Shown here: positions 11,419 to 20,975 of the stretch, one piece after another
How positions within the stretch are numbered: position 1 is the stretch's first letter
Layout of the letters: each line of letters begins with the position of its first letter
IMG/VR virus record: IMGVR_UViG_3300028840_001737
Span: 1 to 20,975 of that record
Source of the DNA: a virus
Strand: one strand, 5' to 3'
DNA: 20,975 nt
Program-made: the position numbers and the translations under genes
The notes under the pieces: generated by a model
Told to the model about the DNA's origin: nothing
Database searches by the model: none
What the model saw: only the letters and a program-made list of their open reading frames with translations

Positions 11419-11495
11419 TGTGTATAACTTTTAAAAGTATGCTAATCTTAGTATATAATTATACACTTGACAAAGTTTATTCTATGATATATAAT
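11419..11495 (+). promoter_or_regulatory. Promoter P1 with inverted DnaA-box-like operator
   Basis: TTGACA at 11467-11472 and TATAAT at 11490-11495 with a 17-base spacer: an exact sigma70-type consensus. Upstream is an inverted pair, TGTGTATAA (11419-11427, on the other strand TTATACACA, a perfect DnaA box) and TTATACAC (11459-11466), the second abutting the -35 box. A near copy lies at 15312-15387 with the same boxes at almost the same spacing. Predicted transcription start is about 11502, 24 bases before the small membrane gene. The boxes could bind DnaA or a phage regulator. Confidence 0.85.
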
Positions 11496-13240: not shown

Positions 13241-13268
13241 TCGTTCTTTTAAAAAAAGGAGGTGTGCT

Positions 13269-13421
13269 ATGAGACTTTTGCCATGTTGTGCTAAATGTGG
13301 TAAAAAGATTTACGTTGAGTCGGTTGGAGTTTATTTGGTCGGTCCTTATTATGTAATAGGAATTGACCTATTTTGTTATGAATGTTTTAAAAAAAGAAAG
13401 GAGGGACGAAATGACATGTGA
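13269..13421 (+). CDS. 50-residue Cys-rich protein, first gene of SD-led island
   Basis: Preceded by AAGGAGGTG at 13256-13264, five bases before ATG, the first strong Shine-Dalgarno of the window. Cys residues C6, C7, C10 and C36, C39 form two CxxC-type knuckles separated by a Tyr/Val/Gly-rich beta stretch (YVESVGVYLVGPYYVIGID), ending with a basic tail (KKRKEGRNDM). It ends in TGA and overlaps the next start by 11 bases, so translation is probably coupled. A zinc ribbon is likely; no function assigned. A transferred origin for the whole island is suggested by its changed start signals. Confidence 0.65.
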   Translation: MRLLPCCAKCGKKIYVESVGVYLVGPYYVIGIDLFCYECFKKRKEGRNDM

Positions 13422-13596
13422 CAAGTATTATTCATGTTACAGAGTTGTCAGGTGTGGAAGCTGTGGCGAATTTCTGTGTTATATTGATGAAGAAAAACAA
13501 GATTGCAGACTTAAGCCACATTATACTCATGCTGAGAAAGAGGGAATAAGATGTATAACGTGCAATAATGGGGGTGCTAATGTGCTTAAAGGTTAA
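13411..13596 (+). CDS. Com-like zinc-ribbon protein A
   Basis: Start 13411 is chosen for its Shine-Dalgarno AAGGAGG (13398-13404); an in-frame ATG at 13363 has none. The 61-residue product has C15-x2-C18, C23 and C48-x2-C51 in the order VVRCGSCGEFLCYI and GIRCITCNN. This resembles the small Mu Com-like zinc fingers (CxxC, a Leu-containing strand, then IxCxxC..N). Mu Com is a translational activator, but the similarity here is by motif only. It is paralogous to the gene at 13964 (same Cys order and spacing). It overlaps the next gene by 17 bases. Confidence 0.65.
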   Translation: MTCDKYYSCYRVVRCGSCGEFLCYIDEEKQDCRLKPHYTHAEKEGIRCITCNNGGANVLKG

Positions 13597-13768
13597 ACAG
13601 TGTACAGTCTGTCTAAGGTATCTTGAAACATTGCAAAGTAATCTTGACACTTTTGTAGAAGCCCATTATAAAACTGGGCGTCAACTTTACTGTGTTCAGT
13701 GTTATCAAGATTATGGAAACATGGATGAATTTAACTTTAACAAAGGCGAGCCACATACGCCGTCATAG
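13580..13768 (+). CDS. 62-residue zinc-ribbon protein
   Basis: ATG 13580 is preferred to ATG 13568 because GGGGGTG just before it can serve as Shine-Dalgarno. The protein has C8/C11 (QCTVC) and C38/C41 (YCVQC), spaced 27 residues apart with a charged helix between (TLQSNLDTFVEAHYKTG) and an acidic tail. This is a treble-clef-like or zinc-ribbon arrangement. It overlaps the upstream Com-like gene by 17 bases and precedes an acidic mini-protein. Alternative start 13568 would add MGVL. No family is recognised. Confidence 0.6.
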   Translation: MCLKVKQCTVCLRYLETLQSNLDTFVEAHYKTGRQLYCVQCYQDYGNMDEFNFNKGEPHTPS

Positions 13769-13777
13769 GAGGTGATC

Positions 13778-13951
13778 ATGTGTGAAAATGGATCAGGTCA
13801 TGAGGGTGATAGCAATGGTAATGGTAATAGTAATGTGGATCATGTCGATCCTGACATTACTGATCTTGCAACGGATTATGAAAACAATCCGCTGTCTGAT
13901 GAGAACGTAACCGAATGGACTCCAGGCGGTAAGGAAACAGGACACGCCTAG
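13778..13951 (+). CDS. 57-residue strongly acidic protein
   Basis: AGGAGGTGATC directly abuts the ATG, an extended complement of the 16S 3' tail. The product (MCENGSGHEGDSNGNGNSNV, then DHVDPDITDLATDYENNPLS) carries many Asp and Glu, one Lys and no Arg, and is Gly/Asn-rich and probably flexible. Small acidic phage proteins sometimes mimic DNA to block host nucleases or regulators, but that is only a compositional guess. An open frame on the opposite strand here is judged a shadow because of this start signal and the flanking co-directional genes. Confidence 0.6.
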   Translation: MCENGSGHEGDSNGNGNSNVDHVDPDITDLATDYENNPLSDENVTEWTPGGKETGHA

Positions 13952-13963
13952 AGGGGGTGTACT

Positions 13964-14152
13964 ATGATATGCTGGGGATGTGAGCGTATTATTATTTGCG
14001 GAACTTGTCAAAAGCAATTATGCTATATCAAGAATGGTAAGTGCTATTTTCAGCCTTACTTTGAGCCTTTTGAGGGTCGTCCTCTTGAGTGCATGAATTG
14101 TGGAGCTGGACAATTTCCAAATGAAAAACGTTGGATAACATCGAAAGGATAG
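13964..14152 (+). CDS. Com-like zinc-ribbon protein B (paralog of 13411 gene)
   Basis: GGGGGTG at 13953-13959 precedes ATG by 4 bases. Cys at 12, 15, 20 and 43, 46 repeat the layout of the gene at 13411: IICGTCQKQLCYI matches VRCGSCGEFLCYI, and LECMNCGAGQF matches IRCITCNNGGA. So these are diverged tandem copies, separated by two other genes. A likely zinc ribbon, possibly RNA- or DNA-binding as in Com-like proteins. The basic tail (NEKRWITSKG) would suit nucleic-acid contact. The gene ends in TAG, 4 bases before the next start. Confidence 0.65.
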   Translation: MICWGCERIIICGTCQKQLCYIKNGKCYFQPYFEPFEGRPLECMNCGAGQFPNEKRWITSKG

Positions 14153-14156
14153 AGCT

Positions 14157-14357
14157 ATGAATTTAAAGATCATCATTAAAGACGTATCATCCGGAATTTT
14201 TTTCCTTATCCTTGATAGTATAGCCAAGCCGTTTGGTGGCAAGGTTACAAAAGATGGTGAATTTATCGGAGACGATGAAGCAAAAAAGGCTACAATCCAC
14301 GAAGCCAGCGAAATGTTCGGGGGCAATGATGGGAATTCTAAAAACTCTTCTGATTGA
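14157..14357 (+). CDS. 66-residue protein with hydrophobic N-terminus
   Basis: AAAGGAT at 14144-14150 lies six bases before ATG. The N-terminal half (MNLKIIIKDVSSGIFFLILD) may insert in or lie on a membrane. The C-terminal half is acidic and polar (GGKVTKDGEFIGDDEAKKAT), ending Asn/Ser-rich. It stops in TGA, and the next gene starts 31 bases upstream of that stop in another frame, showing dense overlapping as in the rest of the island. No conserved domain is recognised. Confidence 0.6.
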   Translation: MNLKIIIKDVSSGIFFLILDSIAKPFGGKVTKDGEFIGDDEAKKATIHEASEMFGGNDGNSKNSSD

Positions 14358-14484
14358 TTTGCCAGTGGCTATTCTGGGCTTATTCTTTAAGAATTCGAGC
14401 CCAAAGCCTTGTTCTAATTGTCAAGGTCAATGCAAACCTTACTGCAATGGAGGTGAAAATGTCAGACACAAGCAGAGGAAATAA
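14326..14484 (+). CDS. 52-residue membrane protein with Cys cluster
   Basis: ATG at 14326 (or 14329) follows GGGGGC, a usable though closely spaced binding site. In-frame upstream ATGs would extend across the previous gene without a ribosome binding site. The product MMGILKTLLIDLPVAILGLF has one hydrophobic span, then C29, C32, C36 and C40 (PCSNCQGQCKPYC) and a basic tail. It overlaps genes on both sides (32 and 26 bases). A membrane-tethered Cys cluster is unusual and may bind metal. Weaker support than for its neighbours because start choice and double overlap are uncertain. Confidence 0.45.
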   Translation: MMGILKTLLIDLPVAILGLFFKNSSPKPCSNCQGQCKPYCNGGENVRHKQRK

Positions 14485-14767
14485 GATTGGTCTTTGCCCT
14501 AAATGCTTTGAAGCTGGGCACTTGACCGCTCATCATGTTCTACCAAAAAGGTACTTCGGACAAAACAAGCACAAGCTGTATTTATGCAGGTCTTGTCACA
14601 ATGAAATCGAGGCTACTCTTCCAAGCTGGAAAATGAAGCGAGGTAATTACTTCAAGATCCATAAAGCATGGTTAAGAGATCAGCCAATTGTAGTGGTAGA
14701 CAGCAAAAAGCACAAACGACTTATAAGAGAAAGAAGGATGAACATAGATGAATCTAGGCTCGATTGA
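14459..14767 (+). CDS. HNH endonuclease-like protein
   Basis: Start 14459 is set by GGAGGTGA (14449-14456); an in-frame ATG at 14354 lies inside the neighbouring membrane gene and has no such site. The 102-residue product carries C13/C16, H25-H26 (TAHHVLPKRYFG) and C43/C46-H47 (YLCRSCHNEIE), the Cys4-type HNH core: zinc-holding CxxC pairs around the catalytic His. A charged C-terminal helix follows (KKHKRLIRERRMNIDES). It may be a mobile homing-type nuclease or a phage DNA-processing enzyme. It ends in TGA and overlaps the next gene by 20 bases. Confidence 0.75.
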   Translation: MSDTSRGNKIGLCPKCFEAGHLTAHHVLPKRYFGQNKHKLYLCRSCHNEIEATLPSWKMKRGNYFKIHKAWLRDQPIVVVDSKKHKRLIRERRMNIDESRLD

Positions 14768-14987
14768 TATTGTAATAAGGTATACTCTTATGGGAGTTTT
14801 TTTTACGCTTGTTCTTACCAATATTCACATGACTGGAAACAAGCATCCAAAAGCTCACCTCGTTGGTTTAGCTCGTGTGGCAATTTATATCATATGGTCA
14901 ATTTTTGCTCACGCATACGAGACTATACCTGGTTCAATTGTCATTCTGTGGTTTACTTTTAAAGCTCACATGAAATGGCAAAAATAA
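14748..14987 (+). CDS. 79-residue membrane protein, last gene of SD-led island
   Basis: AAGGAT about 11 bases upstream of ATG is the probable binding site. Hydrophobic segments are at about residues 6-25 (IDIVIRYTLMGVFFTLVLTN) and 40-70 (LARVAIYIIWSIFAHAYETI and onward), so two or three spans. The C-terminus is basic (KAHMKWQK). It overlaps the HNH gene by 20 bases and is followed within 10 bases by the strong terminator at 14995-15023, so it closes the transcription unit. No family recognised. Confidence 0.6.
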   Translation: MNLGSIDIVIRYTLMGVFFTLVLTNIHMTGNKHPKAHLVGLARVAIYIIWSIFAHAYETIPGSIVILWFTFKAHMKWQK

Positions 14988-16686: not shown

Positions 16687-16944
16687 ATGAAAAAAACTAG
16701 AAAATGTCTATATTGTGAAACAAGAATATCATCAAGCAATAGTATTTGTTCTACTTGTAATTTTATAAAAATGTCAGCTATTGAGTTGCAGAGATATTTA
16801 AATAACTTCTTAGATTATAAGAACATAAAAAAGATTGTTTCAGTAGATGTTCAAATAATTGATAAAAGAAAAAGAGATAAAGAAGTTATTGATAGTATTA
16901 TAAAAACATTTGGTGGTAAAAAATTGACAAAACCTAAAAAATAG
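16687..16944 (+). CDS. Zinc-ribbon mini-protein with basic tail
   Basis: 85 residues. C7/C10 (KCLYC) and C21/C24 (SICSTC) form a tight zinc ribbon, followed by a helical domain (SAIELQRYLNNFLDYKNIKK) and a very basic C-terminus (GGKKLTKPKK). This is likely a nucleic-acid-binding protein. The last codons contain a consensus -35 box (TTGACA at 16924-16929) and the -10 follows its stop, so the 3' end of this gene doubles as a promoter for the structured region beyond. Ends in TAG. Confidence 0.65.
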   Translation: MKKTRKCLYCETRISSSNSICSTCNFIKMSAIELQRYLNNFLDYKNIKKIVSVDVQIIDKRKRDKEVIDSIIKTFGGKKLTKPKK

Positions 16945-16952
16945 CATATAAT
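16924..16952 (+). promoter_or_regulatory. Promoter P3 for structured RNA region
   Basis: TTGACA 16924-16929 and TATAAT 16947-16952, spacer 17, an exact consensus. It overlaps the last codons and stop of the zinc-ribbon gene and has no gene for 770 bases downstream. Start of transcription about 16959. Confidence 0.85.
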
Positions 16953-16958
16953 ATAAAT

Positions 16959-17178
16959 GAATTTACATGTTTTAATTGAACGCTACTGTGGTAAACACGA
17001 AGTTTAATTGAGACATTTTGCCAATCACTAGGGAATGATTGGCTCCCTAGCCACAGATATGGTTTTTTCATACTACTAATACAAGAGCTTAGGCTCTAAA
17101 CCGTATTAGTGGCTAGGGATATAATGGTTACCTTAGTCTGGGTCTCTGGATAGTTGCCCCGCTAAAGCTAAGGTTTCC
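16959..17178 (+). ncRNA. Candidate structured non-coding RNA 1
   Basis: Downstream of P3 and without a credible gene. TCCCTAGCCAC (17044-17054) pairs fully with GTGGCTAGGGA (17109-17119). Inside, ACTAATAC (17075-17082) pairs with GTATTAGT (17103-17110), enclosing AGAGC/GCTCT (17084-17088/17093-17097). Before it, CCAATCA/TGATTGG and CTAGGGA/TCCCTAG are interleaved (17021-17050); the connecting loops are too short to form both at once, so they look like alternative hairpins, and TCCCTAG has two possible partners. ACCTTAG/CTAAGGT (17130-17136/17168-17174) closes the 3' part. TTTAATTGA repeats at about 16973 and 17003. The RNA may switch between shapes. I do not recognise the family. Confidence 0.55.
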
Positions 17179-17179
17179 C

Positions 17180-17207
17180 TTGACAAATAATTTAGATTTG
17201 ATATAAT
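17180..17207 (+). promoter_or_regulatory. Promoter P4 for non-coding RNA 2
   Basis: TTGACA 17180-17185 and TATAAT 17202-17207 with a 16-base spacer. It follows directly on the last helix of RNA 1. Predicted start about 17214. The only downstream element is the pseudoknot-capable RNA and a T-run, with no ORF of note, so it probably drives a small RNA. Confidence 0.85.
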
Positions 17208-17213
17208 ATCTTT

Positions 17214-17325
17214 ACCTTAAAAATTACATACTCGCCTACAACAAGAGAACACAGATTAGCTGTTTACCTGCTCCCACTTTGTTGTAGGCGTGGGTAATGG
17301 TAGATAGCCAATCTGTGTTTTTTTT
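17214..17325 (+). ncRNA. Candidate pseudoknotted small RNA 2, about 110 nt
   Basis: CGCCTACAACAA (17233-17244) pairs perfectly with TTGTTGTAGGCG (17279-17290), 12 bp. AACACAGATT (17248-17257) pairs perfectly with AATCTGTGTT (17310-17319), 10 bp. The two helices interleave, which defines a pseudoknot. Loops of about 3, 21 and 19 bases make it sterically possible. An alternative inner hairpin CCCAC/GTGGG (17273-17277/17290-17294) displays the 3' strand of the first helix in its loop. A run of eight T (17318-17325) directly follows the second helix, so it doubles as a terminator. With P4 this is a complete small RNA gene. No known family recognised. Confidence 0.65.
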
Positions 17326-17350
17326 ATTGAAATTTTTATCAATTTTTTTT
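17318..17350 (+). terminator. T-run and back-up terminator of RNA 2
   Basis: The second RNA 2 helix ends in eight T at 17318-17325. Immediately after, ATTGA/TCAAT (17326-17330/17339-17343) forms a short hairpin followed by a further T-run (17343-17350). Tandem stops are expected for a strongly expressed small RNA. Confidence 0.7.
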
Positions 17351-20345: not shown

Positions 20346-20729
20346 ATGCAAAAGTATAAACCAAAAAAAAAGATAACATCTCAACAAAAAAAGTCTAAAC
20401 TTAAAAGAAAGTTAGATAGAATAATACAAGAGAAAGGAAGAGAAGTTTATGATAGATGTATGGTATGTGGTAGTGAATATTCATGCCTTCATCACTACTA
20501 TACTAAATCAATGAGTTTGAGGCTTAGGTACGACTGGGAAAATTTAATTCCTTTATGTGCAGGGTGTCATTTTTCACATCATAATGGAAATCCAGAAATA
20601 CATAACAAAGTAAGAGATATAAAGGGGGAAGACTGGCTCAAGGAACTTGAAGCAAAAAAAAGACAAATAGCAAATGACACTATAGAATATTATGAGGACT
20701 TGTTGACAAAATTTAATAGAGTAGTATAA
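20346..20729 (+). CDS. NinG-like / HNH recombination endonuclease
   Basis: 127 residues. A basic N-terminus (KKKITSQQKKSKLKRKLD) is followed by C38/C41 (RCMVCGSE), H49-H50 (CLHHYYTKS), LRYDWENLIPLC, then C71/C74-H75 and H78-H79 (CAGCHFSHHNGNPE). The order CxxC, HH, RxDxxN, CxxCHxxHHNGN matches NinG-type recombination proteins of lambdoid phages and related HNH enzymes. The C-terminus (GEDWLKELEAKKRQ) fits too. It likely acts on recombination or packaging intermediates. Its last codons carry the -35 box of P6 (TTGACA at 20703-20708). Confidence 0.75.
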   Translation: MQKYKPKKKITSQQKKSKLKRKLDRIIQEKGREVYDRCMVCGSEYSCLHHYYTKSMSLRLRYDWENLIPLCAGCHFSHHNGNPEIHNKVRDIKGEDWLKELEAKKRQIANDTIEYYEDLLTKFNRVV

Positions 20730-20730
20730 T
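20703..20730 (+). promoter_or_regulatory. Promoter P6 of the anti-SD RNA
   Basis: TTGACA 20703-20708 and TATAAT 20725-20730 with a 16-base spacer, embedded in the last codons and stop of the NinG-like gene. No gene lies between it and the terminator 58 bases further on, so the only product would be the small RNA. Predicted start about 20737. Confidence 0.8.
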
Positions 20731-20736
20731 ATAAAA

Positions 20737-20809
20737 AAATCAAATTTCATATTTTTCTCACCTCCTTAAGAGAAGAAAAACAAAACGCCACTAGCAATAG
20801 TGGTTTTTT
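20737..20809 (+). ncRNA. Candidate anti-Shine-Dalgarno small RNA (about 73 nt)
   Basis: Between P6 and a terminator. TTCTC (20755-20759) and GAGAA (20770-20774) close a hairpin; with flanking T and A bases the stem is about 8 bp including one G-U. The 10-base loop is ACCTCCTTAA. The stretch TCACCTCCTTA (20758-20768) is identical to the 3' tail of bacterial 16S rRNA, the anti-SD. So the RNA could base-pair with Shine-Dalgarno sequences in other messages and block them. The complementary strand would read AAGGAGGTGA, followed by an ATG-led hydrophobic frame antisense to the nuclease gene, which I judge less likely. Function is inferred. Confidence 0.6.
20788..20809 (+). terminator. Rho-independent terminator of the small RNA
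   Basis: CCACTA (20788-20793) pairs with TAGTGG (20798-20803), tetraloop GCAA (a GNRA loop), followed by TTTTTT (20804-20809). It ends both the early operon and the small RNA and lies just before P7. Confidence 0.9.
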
Positions 20810-20812
20810 GTG

Positions 20813-20841
20813 TTGACAATATTATTTTTAATTGATATAAT
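20813..20841 (+). promoter_or_regulatory. Promoter P7 of next gene
   Basis: TTGACA 20813-20818 and TATAAT 20836-20841 with a 17-base spacer, directly after the terminator. Start about 20848, giving a leader of about 79 bases before the ATG at 20927, longer than at P1, P2 and P5 (about 21-24 bases). Confidence 0.85.
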
Positions 20842-20847
20842 ATAAAT

Positions 20848-20926
20848 GAAAGATCATTAGTTTGATTTTTCACTCATAAAAAACATCGGGGGAGAAATCC
20901 CTGGATGCAAACAACTAAATTTATAT
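20848..20926 (+). promoter_or_regulatory. Structured 5' leader of the last gene
   Basis: The leader can form CATC/GATG (20884-20887/20904-20907) above which GGGA/TCCC (20890-20893/20898-20901) closes a GAAA tetraloop. TTAG-TTTG (20857-20864) can pair with CAAA-CTAA (20908-20918, three-base bulge) as an outer helix. The compact hairpin and unusual leader length hint at translational or ligand control. No named riboswitch is recognised. Confidence 0.45.
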
Positions 20927-20975
20927 ATGCAAATTGCTTGTCAAAATCAATCATATTATTATCCTTACTACGTGA
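20927..20975 (+). CDS. N-terminus of a gene cut by the window end (partial)
   Basis: ATG 20927 follows TTATAT and opens MQIACQNQSYYYPYYV, running off the window. A Tyr-rich start is seen; nothing further can be said. It is the gene driven by P7 and preceded by the structured leader. It may be a major early or DNA-metabolism gene, given the strong promoter. Confidence 0.6.
   Translation, partial: MQIACQNQSYYYPYYV

Follow-up and report, generated by a model that had tools for sequence, protein, structure and literature searches.

A candidate phage-encoded small RNA that presents an anti-SD sequence in a hairpin loop

We propose, tentatively, that positions 20737-20808 of the phage contig studied here encode a stand-alone, non-coding RNA with an anti-SD loop that pairs with the ribosome-binding sites of SD-led messages and thereby represses their translation, a reading that we regard as quite possible. 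The features on which it is built can be read directly from the DNA: a promoter, a hairpin, a loop identical to the 16S rRNA tail, a terminator, the lack of a start codon and the complementarity of the loop to SDs. The window, by which we mean the whole stretch of DNA that was analysed, is an entire linear IMG/VR record of 20,975 bp. It represents a fragment of a tailed phage with genes for a tail fibre, a metallo-endopeptidase, a transglycosylase, SSB and HNH proteins, and holds every credible gene on the plus strand.

The unit is located at the right end of the contig. Upstream of it, the gene for a NinG/HNH-like HNH endonuclease of 127 aa (20346-20729, plus strand) ends within a consensus sigma70-type promoter at 20703-20730 on the same strand. 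Here, TTGACA (20703-20708) and TATAAT (20725-20730) are separated by a 16-nt spacer and match the consensus at 12 of 12 positions, as the first-pass annotation had claimed, and the -10 box includes the stop codon of the HNH gene. Judging from the spacing to the -10 box, transcription is predicted to start at about 20737, which gives a predicted plus-strand RNA of about 72 nt (20737-20808) that we classify as non-coding because ATG, GTG and TTG are absent ahead of the terminator stem. Within this RNA, a hairpin at 20752-20777 has a stem of eight base pairs (20752-20759 with 20770-20777), not the five first described, and a folding energy of -5.9 kcal/mol by itself. The 10-nt loop (20760-20769) reads ACCUCCUUAA (ACCTCCTTAA). 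The previously noted match to the 3' tail of 16S rRNA, the anti-SD, is an identity over the 11 nt TCACCTCCTTA (20758-20768, plus strand), which span the unpaired loop plus the closing pairs of the hairpin. The minimum-energy and centroid predictions of the fold agree with each other, and the anti-SD loop is unpaired in each.

The intrinsic terminator GCCACTAGCAATAGTGGTTTTTT, also correctly recognized at the outset, follows at 20787-20809 with a stem-loop at 20787-20804 and a T run, and is terminator-like on the minus strand too. Folding of the 75-nt unit yielded -18.4 kcal/mol compared with -6.4 +/- 2.2 kcal/mol for shuffled sequences (z = -5.4), to which the terminator contributes part. Judged by sequence, the unit thus has the promoter of its own, the intrinsic terminator and the non-coding character of a trans-acting, SD-targeting small RNA, and on this basis the description of a stand-alone non-coding unit with an open anti-SD loop holds. 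Directly after the terminator, another consensus promoter with an extended -10 is located at 20813-20841 on the plus strand. Behind it, an ORF that starts at 20905 (MQTTKFIYANCLSKSIILLSLLR...) is cut by the end of the contig at 20975; the leader of this ORF contains GGGGGAG within a hairpin, and its complementarity to the small RNA is weak.

The sequence TCACCTCCTTA occurs once in the 20,975-bp window, compared with 0.01 expected occurrences. Among 200,000 Markov-simulated non-coding stretches of 72 nt with the composition of the window, 11-nt matches to GGATCACCTCCTTA were obtained at a frequency of 1.5e-5, and 0.8% of the same simulated 72-mers contained a stem of at least eight pairs around a motif. 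Chance had been offered as an explanation from the start, but at this frequency per 72-nt transcript a random origin of the SD/anti-SD sequence is unlikely, and remains so if one corrects liberally for a reader who scans for motifs of every kind. The match statistic alone cannot tell the strand, because AAGGAGGTGA, the reverse complement, would serve as an SD just as well.

We also considered a coincidental resemblance to the 16S tail, in which case the hairpin would be part of the upstream operon, as a common 3'-UTR or terminator-proximal element, or would belong to an RNA with another partner. Such an explanation would be consistent with the weakness of the stem (-5.9 kcal/mol), with the single known copy, common to no relative, and with the inflated significance that results from screening a whole window for whatever motif stands out. 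However, an 11-nt match that is placed in a loop, at 1.5e-5 per transcript, withstands a large look-elsewhere factor, and a perfect promoter immediately upstream argues for a separate transcript. We therefore consider coincidence unlikely.

Another hypothesis is that the signal belongs to the opposite strand. The loop would then be the complement of a genuine SD (20766-20758) in a minus-strand message for a hydrophobic peptide of 58 aa (20574-20750, minus strand), and the plus-strand RNA would be at most a cis-antisense repressor, as in the type I toxin-antitoxin system aapA/IsoA. The SD AAGGAGGTGA is located about 10 nt ahead of the ATG, counted from AGGAGG, which is the right spacing, and the window contains only four AGGAGG-N4-10-ATG sites, the other three of which belong to the SD-led cassette genes described below. 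When the HNH gene was recoded synonymously, a frame of at least 58 aa stayed open in just 1.4% of cases (p = 0.014), a mildly unusual length, and the hypothesis should therefore be taken seriously. The IMG/VR data point in the same direction, in that several other matches to a promoter plus an anti-SD either complement the SDs of real genes or lie opposite tiny hydrophobic ORFs (L014, L026).

On the other hand, with a codon score of -0.55 the 58-aa ORF resembles antisense segments (-0.45 on average, sd 0.25) and is unlike genes (+0.41 on average) or the cassette (-0.08 to 0.32). About 156 of its 177 nt, nearly 90%, are antisense within the HNH gene, on the strand opposite to every credible gene in the window, and a terminator-like hairpin is located just before the SD of the ORF. 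Among the matches listed for the minus strand, none is a sigma70-like site upstream of the ORF that could serve as the promoter of a toxin message, with 225 nt of contig available beyond the ORF start. As a candidate for a type I toxin-antitoxin locus, the site offers an opposite-strand ORF with a correctly placed SD and with codon usage unlike that of coding sequences. The first-pass annotation had itself mentioned an SD for an antisense peptide as an alternative, for which the spacing and the length still speak, but which the codon usage, the lack of a listed promoter and the terminator make rather unlikely.

The exact hairpin was absent from IMG/VR. A looser version of it, TCTCACCTCCTTNNGAGA, was identified at nine loci in viral DNA, and at six of these the hairpin-presented CACCTCCTT clearly complements the SD of a real gene, which again agrees with an antisense SD; the locus in L102 is within a long sense frame. 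Nearly the same stretch is present at L104:5823-5840 and L106:1857-1874, on contigs of very different sizes, with a hairpin-presented CACCTCCTT and no antisense ORF, and may possibly represent an independent anti-SD loop. The combination of promoter and CACCTCCTT was found at 18 loci in IMG/VR, several of which are antisense SDs or have tiny antisense ORFs, and none of which has the architecture seen here. At L014:75-142 and L026:11433-11500, the promoter and anti-SD are opposite to hydrophobic ORFs of about 20 residues (MLQKIILTIIILCFIVVKAY and LLKKIIFIIILLMLCYVKAF, respectively), possibly as type I toxin-antitoxin pairs. L027, with a promoter, an anti-SD and a long hairpin, was considered as a similar unit and rejected as unrelated; a short antisense ORF is present there also.

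Relatives of the phage were recognized from the tail, SSB and HNH proteins. None of these exceeds about 54% identity, the upper value for the tail protein as well, and the unit is present in none of the relatives. A search of related phages for the same unit, suggested in the first-pass annotation as a check, was negative, as the perfect promoter followed by CCTCC was recovered from none of the 50 related sequences examined, which comprised 48 viral records and 2 genomes. At a distance of about 54% identity, this absence is weak evidence. Comparisons to phage records at the DNA level returned nothing useful, and no Rfam 15 family scored above the gathering score for the small RNA. A tRNA search was also negative.

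A candidate host phylum was obtained indirectly, as the phylum of the L046 genome, into which a contig of a related phage had been binned; the genomes in this phylum are small, mostly about 0.5-1.4 Mb. The 16S tail GGATCACCTCCTT is present in these genomes, which contain about 4 strong AAGGAGGTG-N-ATG sites each versus about 0.6 for the reversed pattern, and the perfect promoter plus CACCTCCTT was found in none of 287 of them. The L047 genome was rejected as a pointer to the host, since its 16S rRNA is of archaeal type, as read from the sequence, and the phage contig was thus probably mis-binned.

The SD usage of the phage itself is also relevant. Genes outside one cassette start without an SD, typically at ...AATATG, and the phage family reached via the tail protein is likewise SD-poor by a crude count. 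The cassette, at about 13257-14987 on the plus strand, comprises some five genes with SD-led starts at 13269, 13411, 13778, 13964 and 14459, which together span 13257-14767 and which we consider candidate targets. These genes are short, cysteine-rich and HNH-like, with a somewhat higher G+C content and foreign codon usage (scores of -0.08 to 0.32 versus a mean of +0.41 +/- 0.14 for genes); a search for the donor of the cassette found none. When all 44 start regions in the contig were ranked by computed pairing with the loop, the top five coincided with the starts of the SD-led cassette genes (-12.6 to -16.2 kcal/mol versus a median of -2.0 kcal/mol for all 44 starts), a trivial consequence of their having SDs. 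The early observation that most phage genes lack SDs is thus correct outside the cassette, but this does not mean that the RNA would leave the phage unaffected. The computed duplexes between the loop and the SDs of the cassette are similar in energy to, or weaker than, the duplexes that the 16S tail would form at the same sites, and global competition would therefore need very high RNA levels. That the RNA is a decoy that generally shuts off SD-led host translation and spares SD-less phage genes, as originally proposed, would fit with the SD-less starts outside the cassette and with a loop that by computation can pair with any SD, but appears extremely unlikely given the SD-led cassette of the phage, a binding about equal to or weaker than that of the 16S tail at unfavourable stoichiometry, the few strong SDs in the candidate host phylum and the lack of a comparable unit in relatives.

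The small RNA that we favor, which would block SDs, would be transcribed from the promoter at 20703 as a separate unit. The open loop may then pair in vivo with SDs and thereby block initiation. Its targets would be the SD-led cassette of the phage itself plus a limited set of SD-led host messages, not all host translation. If accumulated, the RNA could hit abundant and accessible SDs, but would hardly be expected to outcompete ribosomes globally. Since the remainder of the phage and its relatives are SD-poor, an anti-SD loop would discriminate between messages. A bolder version, which we consider very unlikely, is that a phage-made mimic of the 16S tail titrates SDs, so that SD-led messages from the host and from acquired genes are repressed and the SD-less phage core is translated, with the RNA serving as a switch between translation classes.

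Other parts of the contig also appear to encode structured RNAs. Seven perfect TTGACA/TATAAT promoters, all on the plus strand, are located at 11467, 15359, 16924, 17180, 18788, 20703 and 20813, several of which bear the extension TATAATATAAAT. Downstream of the promoter at 16924 (region 16924-17180) lies a highly structured non-coding RNA of about 220 nt (16959-17180, z = -6.6), and the non-coding stretch behind it extends to about 17700. The promoter at 17180 (region 17180-17333), which has an extended -10, precedes a strongly folded RNA (17213-17333, z = -6.2) that ends in the terminator-like AATCTGTGTTTTTTTT and in which CGCCTACAACAA can alternatively pair with TTGTTGTAGGCG, an indication of a pseudoknot or a switch. 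No Rfam family was identified at the cut-off for either of these two RNAs. The phage thus apparently makes other structured RNAs, and an additional stand-alone RNA is therefore plausible.

Anti-SD motifs in the hairpin loops of small RNAs are an established type of regulator (PMC3927594, PMC7143759, PMC9410917). The alpha-r14/cuckoo RNAs of the Rhizobiales (NfeR1, SmelA075 and SmelA099) are stand-alone, trans-encoded and predicted to silence messages at translation start regions (PMC3927594, PMC7143759). As judged from the predicted fold, the phage RNA resembles them in being a stand-alone small RNA with an unpaired anti-SD motif in a loop. However, the alpha-r14/cuckoo RNAs are bacterial, have three or four hairpins with CCUCCUCCC in each loop and are often encoded in several genomic copies, whereas the phage RNA is single-copy, has one hairpin plus a terminator with ACCUCCUUAA in the loop, and lacks the multi-hairpin CCUCCUCCC arrangement. 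In the Firmicutes, the C-rich loops of small RNAs such as IsrR, FsrA and RNAIII are single-stranded and pair with SDs in AT-rich genomes in which G-rich runs are rare (PMC9410917, PMC3927594). The phage RNA would likewise direct a C-rich single-stranded loop at the SD, but the Firmicutes RNAs are host-encoded and larger, with several C-rich regions and with known targets and regulation. AbcR1 and AbcR2 contain two CU-rich anti-SD motifs in unpaired regions and are thought to act at the ribosome-binding site (PMC7143759). They share the unpaired anti-SD motif with the phage RNA and differ from it in being alphaproteobacterial, Hfq-binding RNAs of about 114-120 nt with three stem-loops.

The type I antitoxins of the IsoA family in Helicobacter pylori pair with the toxin message and block its translation (PMC6733600). 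Here too, the predicted short RNA has its promoter inside an opposite ORF, but the IsoA system depends on transcription of a toxin message from the other strand, which is disfavored in the phage by the codon usage, the terminator and the lack of a listed promoter. On paper, the phage RNA would be mechanistically similar to the alpha-r14/cuckoo, AbcR and Firmicutes C-rich-loop RNAs, and we do not assign it to any of these families. Our search of open-access papers found no example of a phage-encoded small RNA with an anti-SD loop. Small RNAs with anti-SD loops thus represent a known kind that has seldom if ever been reported from phages.

The type of regulator is known from bacteria, and its presence here would place it in a new setting and connect two modes of translation initiation in a testable way. 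If real, the interest lies in a phage-encoded small RNA with an anti-SD loop within an SD-poor phage. It would suggest how a virus that ignores SDs can act selectively on messages that use them, including those of its own acquired cassette.
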